Assembly: GCA_944380845.1 (NCBI GenBank)
Contig: CALWIU010000068.1
Span: forward strand, 1 to 35,157
Reading direction: 5' to 3'
Length of the DNA: 35,157 nt
Source of the DNA: an uncultured Clostridia bacterium
GTDB lineage: Bacteria > Bacillota > Clostridia > Oscillospirales > Acutalibacteraceae
The translations under genes and the position numbers were made by a program. Every line of letters starts with the position of its first letter. Within the stretch, counting starts at the first letter, position 1. Of the stretch, positions 22,609 through 27,510 are shown one piece after another. The notes beneath the pieces were generated by a model, which saw only the letters and a list, made by a program, of their open reading frames with translations, was not told where the DNA came from and made no database searches.

Positions 22609-22824
22609 ATGGATATTCAGCTTGGCGATCATTTGATTATGAAAAAGGAACATCCCTGCGGCGCCAAAGAATTTGAAGTGCTGCGGGTGGGGATGGATTT
22701 CCGACTGCGGTGCGTCAATTGCGGCAGAGAATTTCTGATTCCCCGCCGTAAAGCGGAAAAAAACATCCGCCAAATTATCAGAAGCGATCTGCTGCCGGAA
22801 ACAAAGGAGAATGCCGATGGTTGA
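22609..22824 (+). CDS. DUF951 domain protein
   Basis: A 71-residue protein of the DUF951 family, recognised by its pattern of MKKEHPCGAKEFEVLRVGMDFRLRCVNCGR in two segments (about 11-28 and 29-40). It has C17 and the C35-x2-C38 pair, which could bind zinc. Its molecular role is unknown; family members often sit beside translation genes. The ATG at 22609 has AAAGGCGG upstream. Its end overlaps prfA by 8 nt, so the two are probably coupled. The sequence sits in an operon of translation and coenzyme genes. Confidence 0.9.
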   Translation: MDIQLGDHLIMKKEHPCGAKEFEVLRVGMDFRLRCVNCGREFLIPRRKAEKNIRQIIRSDLLPETKENADG

Positions 22825-23890
22825 GCAATACCGGCAAATTTTAGAAAAATATCGGAATCTGGGCAAAGAGCTTTCCAGCGGAGTGATTTCCGGCGAACAG
22901 GCGGGCTACGCCGCTGCGATGAAAGAATTTTCCGCTCTTGCCCCCCTTGCCGAAAAAATACAGGAACTTCAGAAACTGGAAGAAAACCTTGAGGAAACAA
23001 GAAAAATTCTTTCTGATCCGGCTACAGACGAAGAATTGCTGTCCCTTGCAAAAGAGGACGAGTACCAAACCGAAAAACAGATCGAAAAAACAGAACAGGA
23101 GCTTCGCCTTTTGCTGTTGCCGAAAGATGAGGACGCCGATAAAAATGTCATCATTGAAATTCGCGGCGGCACCGGAGGCGAAGAGGGCGCATTATTTGCC
23201 GCGACTTTATATCGAATGTACACCATGTATTGCGAAAAAAAGCACTGGCAAACAGAAATTCTTTTCATGAACGAAACAGAACGGGGCGGTTTTAAAGAAA
23301 TCGGATTTCTGGTAAAAGGCAAAGGGGCTTATGACGCTTTGCGCTTTGAAAGCGGCGTGCACCGGGTTCAGAGAGTGCCGGAAACCGAATCACAGGGTCG
23401 AATACACACCTCCGCGGCAACAGTTGCGGTTCTTCCGGAAGCAGAAGAAGTTGATGTTACCATTGACCCTTCCGATTTGCAGATTGATACCTTCCGTTCC
23501 GGCGGTGCAGGCGGTCAGCATGTCAACAAAACCGAATCCGCCATCCGCATAACACACCTGCCGACCGGCATCGTTGCCGAGTGTCAGGACGAACGCAGTC
23601 AATATAAAAACAAAGAAAAAGCGCTGCGCATTCTGCGAGCCCGAATCTTTCAGGCGGAAAAAGAAAAACAGGCACGCGCCATTGCAGGAGAACGCAAGGC
23701 GCAAGTTGGTTCAGGTGACCGCAGTCAGCGCATCCGCACATATAATTACCCGCAGGGACGGGTCACCGATCACCGCATCAACTTAACCATATACCGTTTG
23801 GCGGCGGTTTTGGACGGCGATCTGGATGAATTGACCAATGCCCTGCGTGAAGCCGATCAGGCAAAAAAATTAGCGGAAAGCGGCGTGTAA
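22817..23890 (+). CDS. prfA: Peptide chain release factor 1
   Basis: RF1 ends translation at UAA and UAG. The 357-residue protein has the stop-codon recognition tripeptide PxT as P-E-T in VPETESQGRIHTS, which marks RF1 rather than RF2, and the GGQ peptidyl-hydrolysis motif in SGGAGGQHVNKTES. Length is typical (355-360). I chose the ATG at 22817 because GGAG ends right before the earlier in-frame ATG at 22811, leaving it no spacing. The gene overlaps DUF951 and is 21 bp before the fused sua5-coaE gene. The prmC gene, which often follows prfA and methylates its Gln, is not here. Confidence 0.98.
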   Translation: MVEQYRQILEKYRNLGKELSSGVISGEQAGYAAAMKEFSALAPLAEKIQELQKLEENLEETRKILSDPATDEELLSLAKEDEYQTEKQIEKTEQELRLLLLPKDEDADKNVIIEIRGGTGGEEGALFAATLYRMYTMYCEKKHWQTEILFMNETERGGFKEIGFLVKGKGAYDALRFESGVHRVQRVPETESQGRIHTSAATVAVLPEAEEVDVTIDPSDLQIDTFRSGGAGGQHVNKTESAIRITHLPTGIVAECQDERSQYKNKEKALRILRARIFQAEKEKQARAIAGERKAQVGSGDRSQRIRTYNYPQGRVTDHRINLTIYRLAAVLDGDLDELTNALREADQAKKLAESGV

Positions 23891-23911
23891 ACCCGCAAAG
23901 GAAGTCCATTG

Positions 23912-25540
23912 ATGAAAACAGTTATTCTTCATACCGATACCGATCCTGATTACGCCCAAAGAGCCTCTCAAGTTCTGAAAAACGGCGGCCTTGTCGCAAT
24001 TCCGACCGAGACAGTATACGGATTAGCCGCCAATGCGCTGGATGAAAAAGCGGTTGAAAAAATCTATCTCGCCAAAGGACGCCCGTCGGACAATCCTCTG
24101 ATCGTCCATATCTCTTCTTTTGCTGAATGGGAACCACTGGTACAAACCATCCCCGAAAAAGCAAAAAAGATTGCCGACGCGTTCTGGCCGGGTCCATTGA
24201 CCATTATTCTGCCGAAATCCGATCTGGTACCAAACCGTACCAGCGGCAATCTTGCCACCGTGGCGGTTCGCATGCCCGCACATCCGGCAGCACGGGCAAT
24301 CATCGCTGCGTCGGGGCTTCCTCTGGCGGCGCCCAGCGCCAATATTTCCGGATTTCCCAGTCCGACAAAAGCGGAATATGTAATAGACGACATGAACGGG
24401 CGAATCGATATGATTGTCGATGGCGGTGATTCTGCGGTCGGCGTAGAATCTACCGTTATTACATTTGCCGGCGATATGCCCGAAATCCTGCGTCCGGGCG
24501 GGATAACCCCGGAACAGATTGAAGGTGTGATCGGTAAAATCCGCATCAACAGCGCCGTCTTGCACCCGTTGCAAAACGGCGAAAAAGCCGAAAGTCCCGG
24601 CATGAAATACAAGCACTACGCCCCCAAAGCACAAATTACCATCTACACCGGCAGCAAAAAGGGATATTTCCGACTGTTGGAAGAAAAAAAAGCAGAAGGT
24701 ATTTATGCCCTCTGTTTTCAAGAAGATCAAGCGAACTGCCCGGTTCCTTGTGTAACCATGGGCAGTGAAAAAGATCCGCTTTCTCAGGCCGTTCGGCTTT
24801 TTGACGCCCTGCGGGAACTGGATGAGCAGGGAGCGCAAAAAGTACTTGCCCGCTGTCCCGATGAAACCGGCGTCGGCCTTGCCGTTTGCAACCGGCTGTT
24901 CCGCGCGGCTGCGTTTCGTTTCTTCTATGAAGCGCCCATTCTCGGACTGACCGGCGAAAGCGGCGCTGGCAAATCCACCGTCGCCGCGTTTTTTGCAAAC
25001 AATGGTTTTGCCGTGGTAGACTGCGATCAAATCGCCAGACAGGTCGCGGAAAAAGAAGAAATACAAAAACAGCTGGCAGAAGCCTTTGGGCAGGATATTT
25101 GTCAGAACGGCGGACTGAATCGCAAACTGCTTGCTCATAGAGCGTTTTCATCCGAAGAAAAAACTGCCCTGCTGAACCAGATCACCCATCCTGCTATTTT
25201 GCGGCAGACCATAGAGCAGGCGCTGACTTTTTCCCGCTCGGGCAAACCGGTTGTTATCGATGCGCCGCTTCTGTTTTCGACCGGACTGGACAAATTCTGC
25301 GATTGGACAATCGCTGTCACCGCTGATGAAAAAACCCGCCTCCTGCGCATTATGGAGCGTGACAGCATCAGCATGGAAGACGCCAAAAAACGCACGGCAC
25401 GACAGCAGAAGGAAAACTTTGCAGAACGGGCAGATCAACTCGTTTGCAACGATGACAATACAAATTACCGAAACGATCTTATGTCGCTGATAGAGAGGAT
25501 CCGATCATTCGATGAAAAGAACAAGACCCGTCTCCCGTAA
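23912..25540 (+). CDS. Fused threonylcarbamoyl-AMP synthase (Sua5) and dephospho-CoA kinase (CoaE)
   Basis: A 542-residue two-enzyme protein in one open frame. Residues 1-335 are Sua5, which makes threonylcarbamoyl-AMP for the tRNA modification t6A. They show the KGRPSDNPLIVH ligand motif, the PSANISG loop, VESTV, LRPGGIT, the HYAPK hinge (about 232) and the Sua5 C-terminal domain. Residues 340-542 are CoaE, which phosphorylates dephospho-CoA in the last step of CoA synthesis. They show the P-loop GESGAGKST at 348-356, DCDQIARQV and IDAPLLFSTGLD. Each half has its normal length, and no internal stop or ribosome binding site was seen at the joint. ATG at 23912 has AAGGAAG upstream. It overlaps the lytic transglycosylase gene by 29 nt. 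Confidence 0.95.
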   Translation: MKTVILHTDTDPDYAQRASQVLKNGGLVAIPTETVYGLAANALDEKAVEKIYLAKGRPSDNPLIVHISSFAEWEPLVQTIPEKAKKIADAFWPGPLTIILPKSDLVPNRTSGNLATVAVRMPAHPAARAIIAASGLPLAAPSANISGFPSPTKAEYVIDDMNGRIDMIVDGGDSAVGVESTVITFAGDMPEILRPGGITPEQIEGVIGKIRINSAVLHPLQNGEKAESPGMKYKHYAPKAQITIYTGSKKGYFRLLEEKKAEGIYALCFQEDQANCPVPCVTMGSEKDPLSQAVRLFDALRELDEQGAQKVLARCPDETGVGLAVCNRLFRAAAFRFFYEAPILGLTGESGAGKSTVAAFFANNGFAVVDCDQIARQVAEKEEIQKQLAEAFGQDICQNGGLNRKLLAHRAFSSEEKTALLNQITHPAILRQTIEQALTFSRSGKPVVIDAPLLFSTGLDKFCDWTIAVTADEKTRLLRIMERDSISMEDAKKRTARQQKENFAERADQLVCNDDNTNYRNDLMSLIERIRSFDEKNKTRLP

Positions 25541-26096
25541 CAGCGTTACGCTTTTGATAGGCGTACTTTTACTGCTTGGCGCCGTTCTCATTTGTATAAT
25601 TGCCGGACACTTTCTGCAAAACGGCGTACCGCTGAAATACGAATCTATCGTGGAAAAATACAGCAGGGAATATCAAGTCTCCGAACCTCTGATTTATGCC
25701 GTTATCCGAACCGAAAGCGATTTTGATCCGCAAGCCGTTTCCTCGGCGGGAGCTATGGGGCTGATGCAAATGACACCGGAAACCTTTGCCTGGCTGCAAA
25801 GCCGATCCGGAGAATCGCTGCCCGATTCCGCTCTGCTGGAGCCGGAAACATCTATTCGCTACGGCGTGTATTTTCTCTCTATTCTTTCCGAGCGCTTTGA
25901 AGTCACCGACACCGTTCTTGCCGCCTACAATGCCGGCATGAACGCCGTTGCTTCCTGGTTATCCGATCCGGAACATTCCGCTGACGGCAAGCATTTACAG
26001 AATATTCCCTATCCGGAAACAGAATACTATGTTATTAAAGTAAATCGTGCGCTGGCACAATACCGCGCTTTATTAGAACCCATTACAACTTCTTGA
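25512..26096 (+). CDS. Membrane-anchored lytic transglycosylase (SLT domain)
   Basis: A 194-residue protein that should cleave the glycan strands of peptidoglycan outside the cell. One N-terminal membrane anchor (about 13-36) precedes a soluble lytic transglycosylase domain (about 45-185). The catalytic Glu is E68 in RTESDFDPQAVS, followed by SAGAMGLMQMTP and AYNAGMNAV, both standard SLT motifs. The start overlaps the end of the fused sua5-coaE gene by 29 nt, with GAGAGGATC upstream. A coaE-slt order is, as I recall, common in Clostridia, which supports the CoaE reading of the fused gene's second half. Confidence 0.94.
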   Translation: MKRTRPVSRNSVTLLIGVLLLLGAVLICIIAGHFLQNGVPLKYESIVEKYSREYQVSEPLIYAVIRTESDFDPQAVSSAGAMGLMQMTPETFAWLQSRSGESLPDSALLEPETSIRYGVYFLSILSERFEVTDTVLAAYNAGMNAVASWLSDPEHSADGKHLQNIPYPETEYYVIKVNRALAQYRALLEPITTS

Positions 26097-26106
26097 GGTG
26101 ATCCAT

Positions 26107-27510
26107 ATGTCTGAAGAAAAAAACAACGCAGTTGAACAGTTGAAAAAAAAGCTGCTCTTTACCAATGAGCACGCCGATGAAATCCTTTCCGAACAGGATA
26201 AACGCGGCGCAGATGAGTTTTGCGAAGGGTACAAAGATTTCCTTGACACAGCAAAAACAGAAAGAGAAGCGGCGCGCGAAATTCTGCGATTAGCGGAAGA
26301 AAATGGCTATACGCCTTTTGTAAAGGGCAGCTCCTACCGCCCCGGTGACAAGATCAGTTTTTCTATTCATGGAAAAGCTGTCATCCTCACGGTATTCGGC
26401 AAGCATCCCCTGGCCGATGGCGTCCGTATTGCCGCCGCTCACATCGATTCGCCCCGACTGGATCTGAAGCCCAATCCCCTGTATGAAGATTCAGATATCG
26501 CATACTTCAAGACCCACTATTACGGCGGTATCCGCAAATATCAATGGCCGACAGTCCCGCTGGCGCTTCACGGCGTTGTCTGCAAAAAGGACGGCAGTAA
26601 AATTTATGTAAAAATCGGCGAAGAACCGGGAGAACCAAAATTTGTCATCAGTGATCTTTTGCCCCATCTGGGAGCCAAGCAAGGGCAGCGCAAACTGGCA
26701 GAAGGCATTCTCGGCGAAGAACTGAATATCATCATTGGATCCCGCCGATTCAAGGACTGCCCTTCCGATGCGGTCAAGCTGGCGATTATGGATCTTCTGT
26801 ACGAGCAATACGGCTTTACCGAAAAAGATTTTCAAAGCGCTGAGCTGGAAGCAGTGCCCGCCTATTCGGCTGACGATATCGGTTTTGACCGCAGCATGAT
26901 CGGTGCTTACGGACAAGACGACCGCGTCTGCGCCTATCCGGCGGTTATGGCGTCCATTGATGCCGAAATTCCCGAATACACCTGTCTTTCGGTGCTGACG
27001 GACAAAGAAGAGATCGGCAGCGAAGGCAATACCGGTCTGGAATCCCGTTATCTCGCTCAGTTTATCGAAGATCTGGCGCAGGGAGAAAATACAGATGTCA
27101 ACGATGTACTGCGCAACAGCCTCTGTCTATCTGCCGATGTCAATGCCGCCTATGACCCCACCTTTTCGGATGTTTTTGAGAAGCGCAATACGGCGCAAAT
27201 CAATCACGGCGTAGTGATCACCAAATACACCGGTGCGCGCGGAAAAAGCGGAACCAACGATGCGCCTGCCGAATTTATGGCATGGGTACGCGCTGTTCTG
27301 GAAAACGGCAATGTCCTGTGGCAAACCGGCGAGCTGGGCAAAGTAGATGAAGGCGGCGGCGGAACCGTAGCGAAATTCATTTCTCATCTTGGTGTTCAAA
27401 CCGTTGATCTCGGCGTTCCGGTTCTTTCCATGCACGCGCCTTACGAAATCACCGCTAAATACGATATCTATATGGCATACCGTGCCTTTTGTGAGTTTTT
27501 CAAGAACTAA
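26107..27510 (+). CDS. M18 family aminopeptidase
   Basis: A 467-residue zinc aminopeptidase of family M18, usually favouring acidic N-terminal residues. Metal ligand segments are all present: H112 in AAHIDSPR, the GQDDRVCAYP Asp, TDKEEIGSEGNTG with its catalytic Glu, SADVNAAYDP and a C-terminal SMHAPYE His. No signal peptide is seen, so it is cytoplasmic and likely recycles peptides. The ATG at 26107 has GAGGTGATC at good spacing; the GTG three codons earlier would overlap that site. It is 10 bp after the transglycosylase gene and is the last gene before the terminator at 27554. Confidence 0.96.
   Translation: MSEEKNNAVEQLKKKLLFTNEHADEILSEQDKRGADEFCEGYKDFLDTAKTEREAAREILRLAEENGYTPFVKGSSYRPGDKISFSIHGKAVILTVFGKHPLADGVRIAAAHIDSPRLDLKPNPLYEDSDIAYFKTHYYGGIRKYQWPTVPLALHGVVCKKDGSKIYVKIGEEPGEPKFVISDLLPHLGAKQGQRKLAEGILGEELNIIIGSRRFKDCPSDAVKLAIMDLLYEQYGFTEKDFQSAELEAVPAYSADDIGFDRSMIGAYGQDDRVCAYPAVMASIDAEIPEYTCLSVLTDKEEIGSEGNTGLESRYLAQFIEDLAQGENTDVNDVLRNSLCLSADVNAAYDPTFSDVFEKRNTAQINHGVVITKYTGARGKSGTNDAPAEFMAWVRAVLENGNVLWQTGELGKVDEGGGGTVAKFISHLGVQTVDLGVPVLSMHAPYEITAKYDIYMAYRAFCEFFKN

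Follow-up and report, generated by a model that had tools for sequence, protein, structure and literature searches.

Gene fusions are often taken as evidence that the joined proteins act together, a reasoning known as "Rosetta stone" logic, and the enzymes Sua5 and CoaE have little in common beyond ATP. What, then, does a single gene that appears to encode both of them report? Such a gene lies in the window analysed here, a 35,157-nucleotide contig (CALWIU010000068.1) from an uncultured Clostridia bacterium of the Acutalibacteraceae (Table 1). As judged from sequence, we consider it very probable that sua5::coaE specifies a bifunctional protein with Sua5 and CoaE halves that act independently, and that it arose when adjacent genes of one operon were fused by stop loss or an indel. 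The interesting part is the recurrence of this fusion, which constitutes a natural replicate experiment on when a fusion reports function and when it reports only adjacency.

Table 1. Coordinates in the window of the fused gene, its parts and its neighbors
Feature	Position	Strand	Evidence and remarks
sua5::coaE fused gene	23912..25540	+	542 aa; Pfam and NCBIfam matches
Sua5 half: TsaC-like domain (residues 20-196) and Sua5_C (198-334)	23912..24913	+	PF01300, PF03481
Sua5-CoaE junction, about residues 335-342	24914..24937	+	No spacer domain, SD-like motif or in-frame start codon
CoaE half: predicted dephospho-CoA kinase, residues 343-542, P-loop from 348	24938..25540	+	PF01121 (343-517), TIGR00152
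prfA, peptide chain release factor 1, upstream neighbor	22811..23890	+	TIGR00019, 500 bits; usual operon order
slt, lytic transglycosylase	25512..26096	+	PF01464; 29-nt overlap with sua5::coaE
M18 aminopeptidase, gene after slt	26098..27510	+	PF02127; PRK02256.1, 627 bits

In the window's open reading frames and their translation, the gene runs uninterrupted for 542 codons from its ATG, which is preceded by GGAAG at 23900, to its TAA at 25540. The Pfam matches to its product were strong for the TsaC-like domain (205 bits, cut-off 25.1), for Sua5_C (108 bits, cut-off 22.9) and for CoaE (145 bits), and the protein passed two NCBIfam equivalogs, TIGR00057 for threonylcarbamoyl-AMP synthase (211 bits, cut-off 123.2) and TIGR00152 for dephospho-CoA kinase (135 bits, cut-off 65.55). 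The P-loop reads GESGAGKS. Across 29 fused rows, K55-G-R-P, S142-A-N, S228-P-G and H235-Y were invariant in the Sua5 half and G348, G351, G353, K354 and R483-D in the CoaE half, residues that we take to be the motifs of the respective enzymes. A preliminary description of this DNA had read it as one frame holding a full Sua5 (residues about 1-335) and a full CoaE (about 340-542, P-loop at 348-356), with the motifs of both halves retained, and it proved accurate on each of these points. Because it carries both the TsaC-like and the C-terminal SUA5 domain, the first half is classed as a putative threonylcarbamoyl-AMP synthase of the two-domain type, which would catalyze the first step of tRNA t6A formation; the equivalog and the P-loop likewise assign the second half as a predicted dephospho-CoA kinase, which would catalyze the last step of CoA synthesis and into which Sua5_C runs straight. 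In an AlphaFold model of the 542-residue protein (mean pLDDT, 93.8; pTM, 0.82), the Sua5 half superimposed on Pyrococcus abyssi Sua5 (6f89; 45% identity, TM of 0.92 by target length, 343 columns) and the CoaE half on bacterial CoaE structures (TM of 0.81 for 9dug and 0.83 for 4i1v). At the junction of the model, a strand at residues 337-339 is separated by three residues from a strand at 343-348. The mutual placement of the two halves is only suggested by the model, because its inter-domain error was unreported.

Several known systems resemble this architecture in part. The animal bifunctional CoA synthase (PDB 2f6r) also contains a dephospho-CoA kinase domain, but the partner there, PPAT, acts one step earlier in CoA synthesis, whereas the partner in the window protein comes from tRNA modification; the Pfam scan of the window protein revealed no PPAT domain, and the protein does not belong with CoA synthases of the animal type. 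TsaN, a TsaD-TsaC-SUA5-TcdA modular enzyme (PDB 8ide), likewise carries a Sua5 module within a larger fusion, but its partners are, by the PDB title, TsaD and TcdA rather than CoaE. Neither module was detected in the window protein, whose Pfam matches are limited to Sua5, Sua5_C and CoaE, plus generic P-loop models that overlap the last of these. In the available passages of one paper, HypF and TobZ are given as fusions that include TsaC-like domains, and CoaE is not mentioned there (PMC10321239). Our searches of open-licence papers found no description of a Sua5-CoaE fusion.

A fused frame in a metagenome might be an assembly or sequencing artefact, produced by a lost stop codon or a frameshift, and all 11 fused loci that have a named record (11/11) carry MAG titles. 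The junction DNA was checked for a stop or frameshift near 24920-24945, and the stretch 24880-24960 reads through with zero stops, upholding the fusion. A fusion with 59% identity to that of the window is present in a congeneric genome (G043, 96% complete), where the single PF01121 match and the single PF01300 match both fall in the fused frame, which makes a sequencing error at the join very unlikely. The fusion is also shared by a clade of ten rows that includes the window, and the window's join lacks both an SD-like motif and a start codon, so that one sequencing error would be insufficient to create it. We regard an artefact as extremely improbable. The preliminary description had further expected no separate sua5 or coaE. 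This expectation held in the window's own genome (2.01 Mb in 79 contigs, 87.15% complete), where a profile search returned one match each for PF01121 and PF01300, both inside the fused frame; another copy of either gene could lie in the missing 13%. In a PF01300 search of 39 fused genomes, 34 had exactly one match. The additional matches comprised those in long, HypF-sized frames of 690-720 aa in three genomes (G021, G071 and G149), others in G034, the best of them in a frame of 499 aa, and a second, partial one on a different contig of G063.

The gene order in relatives, among which the named genera are Ruminococcus, Faecalibacterium, Gemmiger and Subdoligranulum, suggests how the fusion came about. 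They place the group in the NCBI Oscillospiraceae, which corresponds to the order Oscillospirales of other schemes. Among 179 loci with both domains, sua5 and coaE were adjacent but separate in 120, fused in 50 and apart in 9, and the usual order was prfA-sua5-coaE-slt, followed by the M18 gene. Ruminococcus albus 7 has the same enzymes in the same operon context, with prfA upstream and a transglycosylase and an aminopeptidase downstream, but there sua5 and coaE are two genes with a 4-nt overlap (RUMAL_RS20165/RS20170), encoding two proteins, and a VOC-family gene stands between prfA and sua5. In this strain, prfA, sua5, coaE, spoIIGA and sigE are located on a 353-kb replicon (NC_014825.1; L233) that bears the plasmid name pRUMAL02 and was typed as conjugative. 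The sua5 and coaE genes of S. variabile OY725841 share one frame and looked fused by tblastn; this candidate was rejected when the open reading frames showed a stop separating them. The preliminary description had pictured the gene as if two blocks had met at the stop codon of sua5. A joining of blocks is supported only at depth, by three loci (L198, with coaE alone, and L205 and L212, with coaE-slt) in which prfA-sua5 is preceded, at a distance of about 1.4-2 kb, by the coaE block; as an account of the fusion it fails, given the 120 of 179 loci in which the two genes are adjacent and unfused. The fusion is a later small step in many lineages, separate from the event that united the blocks.

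The anatomy of the junction points in the same direction. Of 118 unfused sua5-coaE pairs, in which the coaE start relative to the sua5 stop was chosen automatically by script, 63 overlap, 34 of these as NTGA, and 10 are already in frame, with the stop codon as sole separator. In 47 of the 50 fusions, 18-24 residues separate the NRL motif from the P-loop, and 86 of 113 unfused sua5 genes have 14-15 residues from NRL to the stop codon, indicating that most fusions join the genes head to tail and that few residues were added or removed. An SD-like motif, scored by simple matching to GGAG, GAGG or AGGA within 30 nt and not as a ribosome-binding prediction, occurs in the tail of 88/113 unfused sua5 genes versus 7/50 fused ones. 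These observations are consistent with a model in which ancestral sua5 and coaE were separate, adjacent and often overlapping genes of one operon, probably translationally coupled; once the sua5 stop was lost or a small indel arose, the two frames would have come into register, and the internal ribosome-binding-like motif would then have been free to decay. The fused product might nevertheless be cleaved, or coaE might also be initiated internally, yielding two working proteins, as the in-frame start-like codons retained at the join of some fusions could suggest, particularly in L037 (from the window's genus), L146 and L220, where an SD-like motif precedes such a codon. The window's join, in contrast, has no in-frame ATG, GTG or TTG and, by the pattern test, no SD-like motif, and we judge two separate products to be quite unlikely. 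A hidden internal coaE start in the window was rejected on the same grounds, and an ATGA at the junction was not accepted as a relic start, being out of the CoaE frame.

The fusion is a minority state that recurs across the group. A CoaE match was present in 138 of 150 family genomes (over the cut-off in 137), and the fusion was found in 32 of these 138; other families of the order contributed at least seven further fusions. The 32/138 figure is a less biased frequency than 50/179, the 179-locus set being enriched for fusions through the deliberate fetching of long-frame loci and one search with a fused-protein profile. The counts of 179 and 50 also include some species twice (L140 and L141 are identical to L080 and L079, respectively, and L136 is very close to L051); L002, which duplicates the window, was left out. 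Outside the locus set are the CoaE loci of eight genomes (G128, G075, G070, G099, G049, G041, G081 and G005), whose CoaE frames, at most 226 aa and fragmentary in G081, are too short for a fusion as they stand.

On a tree of PrfA, Sua5 and CoaE from 156 loci, 40 of them fused, the fused state requires 21 changes with FastTree and IQ-TREE alike; the tree omits 23 of the 179 loci (10 fused) that had no usable PrfA, Sua5 or CoaE segment, and the PrfA of the window row is a 150-aa piece. When branches with less than 95% support were collapsed, 13 changes (FastTree) or 16 (IQ-TREE) were left, and 7-8 when the threshold was 99%. Single-protein trees required 23 changes for PrfA, 24 for Sua5 and 29 for CoaE. 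Shuffled labels gave about 35 changes (lowest, 29) versus the 21 observed, so the fused rows group together on the tree and part of the count reflects inheritance within clades. Counting gains only again gave 21, and fission is thus not needed. Constraining 33 fused rows to one clade, against 30 unfused rows, cost 416 log-likelihood units (p-AU, 2e-7), which rejects a single origin of these 33; the rows tested were 33 of the 40 fused (the other 7 lie outside the family) and a random draw of 30 from 101 unfused, 15 of 116 having been excluded beforehand, and this subset by itself needs 11 changes. All members of the window's ten-row clade are fused (10/10; support, 91), and the window's fusion has therefore been kept over genera. 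We conclude that the sua5-coaE fusion probably had many independent origins, more than a dozen, among these gut bacteria. Its mechanism seems ordinary, and the number of its origins seems unusual.

Why this gene pair should fuse so often is best approached through its neighbors. Among tight pairs (20 nt or less), unfused and fused cases numbered 42 and 0 for prfA-sua5, 43 and 0 for slt-M18, 35 and 1 for coaE-slt, 29 and 6 for coaE-M18, and 95 and 50 for sua5-coaE, the last set being fusion-enriched by locus fetching. Fusions therefore cluster around CoaE, on both of its sides, and proximity as the sole cause was rejected, prfA-sua5 and slt-M18 being unfused throughout. The slt product, we assume, is probably exported and the PrfA end may not tolerate additions, so the scarcity of fusion in the other pairs is not proof of selection. 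CoaE is joined to the M18 aminopeptidase at six loci (L034, L048, L049, L189, L214 and L219, with L048 and L049 in one genome) and to the lytic transglycosylase (SLT) at one (L139). In a phylum sample of 159 genomes, the CoaE frames of at least 470 aa among the matches listed were, besides that of the window, three MutM-CoaE fusions from three genomes of other families (L235:1345-2892, L236:2044-3474 and L237:2263-3738 [-]). These resemble the window gene in that CoaE forms the C-terminal part of a frame that starts with another enzyme, but differ in that the partner is formamidopyrimidine-DNA glycosylase and not Sua5. One paper lists a "DNA glycosylase / Dephospho-CoA kinase" cluster among those that may combine programmed frameshifting with translational coupling (PMC3711429).

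Two further loci extend the range of architectures. An 829-aa triple fusion in G048 (L054:2475-4961) comprises Sua5, Sua5_C, a linker, CoaE and Pth (PF01195, 213 bits); the linker, which is 83 aa long and lies between Sua5 and CoaE, contains a tandem pair of 111-nt repeats that are 95% alike. In G073 (L061:2596-4962), Sua5 and CoaE share one frame across an acidic-rich linker of about 255 residues, and a TAA is flagged inside the CoaE match. From the variety of CoaE partners, namely MutM, M18, the transglycosylase and the Sua5-CoaE-Pth arrangement, it seems that neighborhood, and not pathway logic, picks the partner. Since fusions sit on both sides of CoaE, and MutM-CoaE and Sua5-CoaE-Pth occur besides, the most economical interpretation is that a covalent neighbor is tolerated by CoaE and perhaps of profit to it. 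Mycobacterial CoaE (Rv1631, CoaE-UPF0157), which is reported to require its C-terminal partner for solubility, offers a precedent for such profit, as a single chain of CoaE and an unrelated partner (PMC2765170). It differs from the window protein in that UPF0157/GrpB is C-terminal there, while Sua5 is N-terminal here; the Pfam scan of the window protein detected no UPF0157 domain, and its match to PRK03333.1 (CoaE-UPF0157) reached 112 bits against a cut-off of 215, ending at profile position 179 of 395. We offer only tentatively, as a generalization about which we have considerable doubt, that CoaE may be a serial fusion acceptor across the Bacillota, to which a covalent partner gives stability or dosage and whose architecture is written by neighborhood and not by biochemistry.

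These patterns bear on whether the two activities are coupled. The preliminary description had mentioned, as speculation only, a functional link between translation fidelity and CoA supply, and in an adaptive version of this idea the fusion would couple t6A to CoA or ATP status, for example through an allosteric contact between Sua5_C and CoaE. Such a role could account for the repeated origin of the fusion (21 changes, or 13-16 with weakly supported branches collapsed), its retention in the window's ten-row clade and the lower rate of fusion in the remaining tight pairs of the operon, and the pTM of the model may suggest a defined domain arrangement. Against it stand the diversity of CoaE partners (MutM, M18, SLT and Pth), the absence of the fusion from 106 of the 138 CoaE-bearing family genomes and the lack of association with CoaBC, which was present in 8 of 32 fused versus 29 of 106 unfused genomes of this set; a tie between the fusion and CoaBC loss was rejected on the same counts. 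We consider an adaptive coupling unlikely, and the speculated link found no support. Independent action of the two halves is the reading we prefer: both are probably active, without channelling or metabolic coupling, and CoaE's fusion partner would be set by the adjoining gene. The fusion would be tolerated or mildly useful, because it would fix 1:1 synthesis and may provide CoaE with a folding partner in cis. The sua5-coaE case thus warns against deducing a t6A-CoA link from domain architecture.

The survey also touched on the CoA pathway itself. In five genomes of 1.0-1.2 Mb that are 94-99% complete (G033, G067, G086, G093 and G116), CoaE and CoaB were unmatched and CoaD had no match over the cut-off, and these genomes seem to lack the final part of the CoA pathway. 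PF04127 (CoaB/CoaBC) exceeded its cut-off in just 38 of the 150 family genomes; the window's genome (G000) had one weak match below the cut-off and the congeneric G043 none, and coaD was found in both (at G000:C71 in the former). This scarcity of PF04127 hints at the salvage of pantetheine-level precursors or at an unrecognised CoaB.
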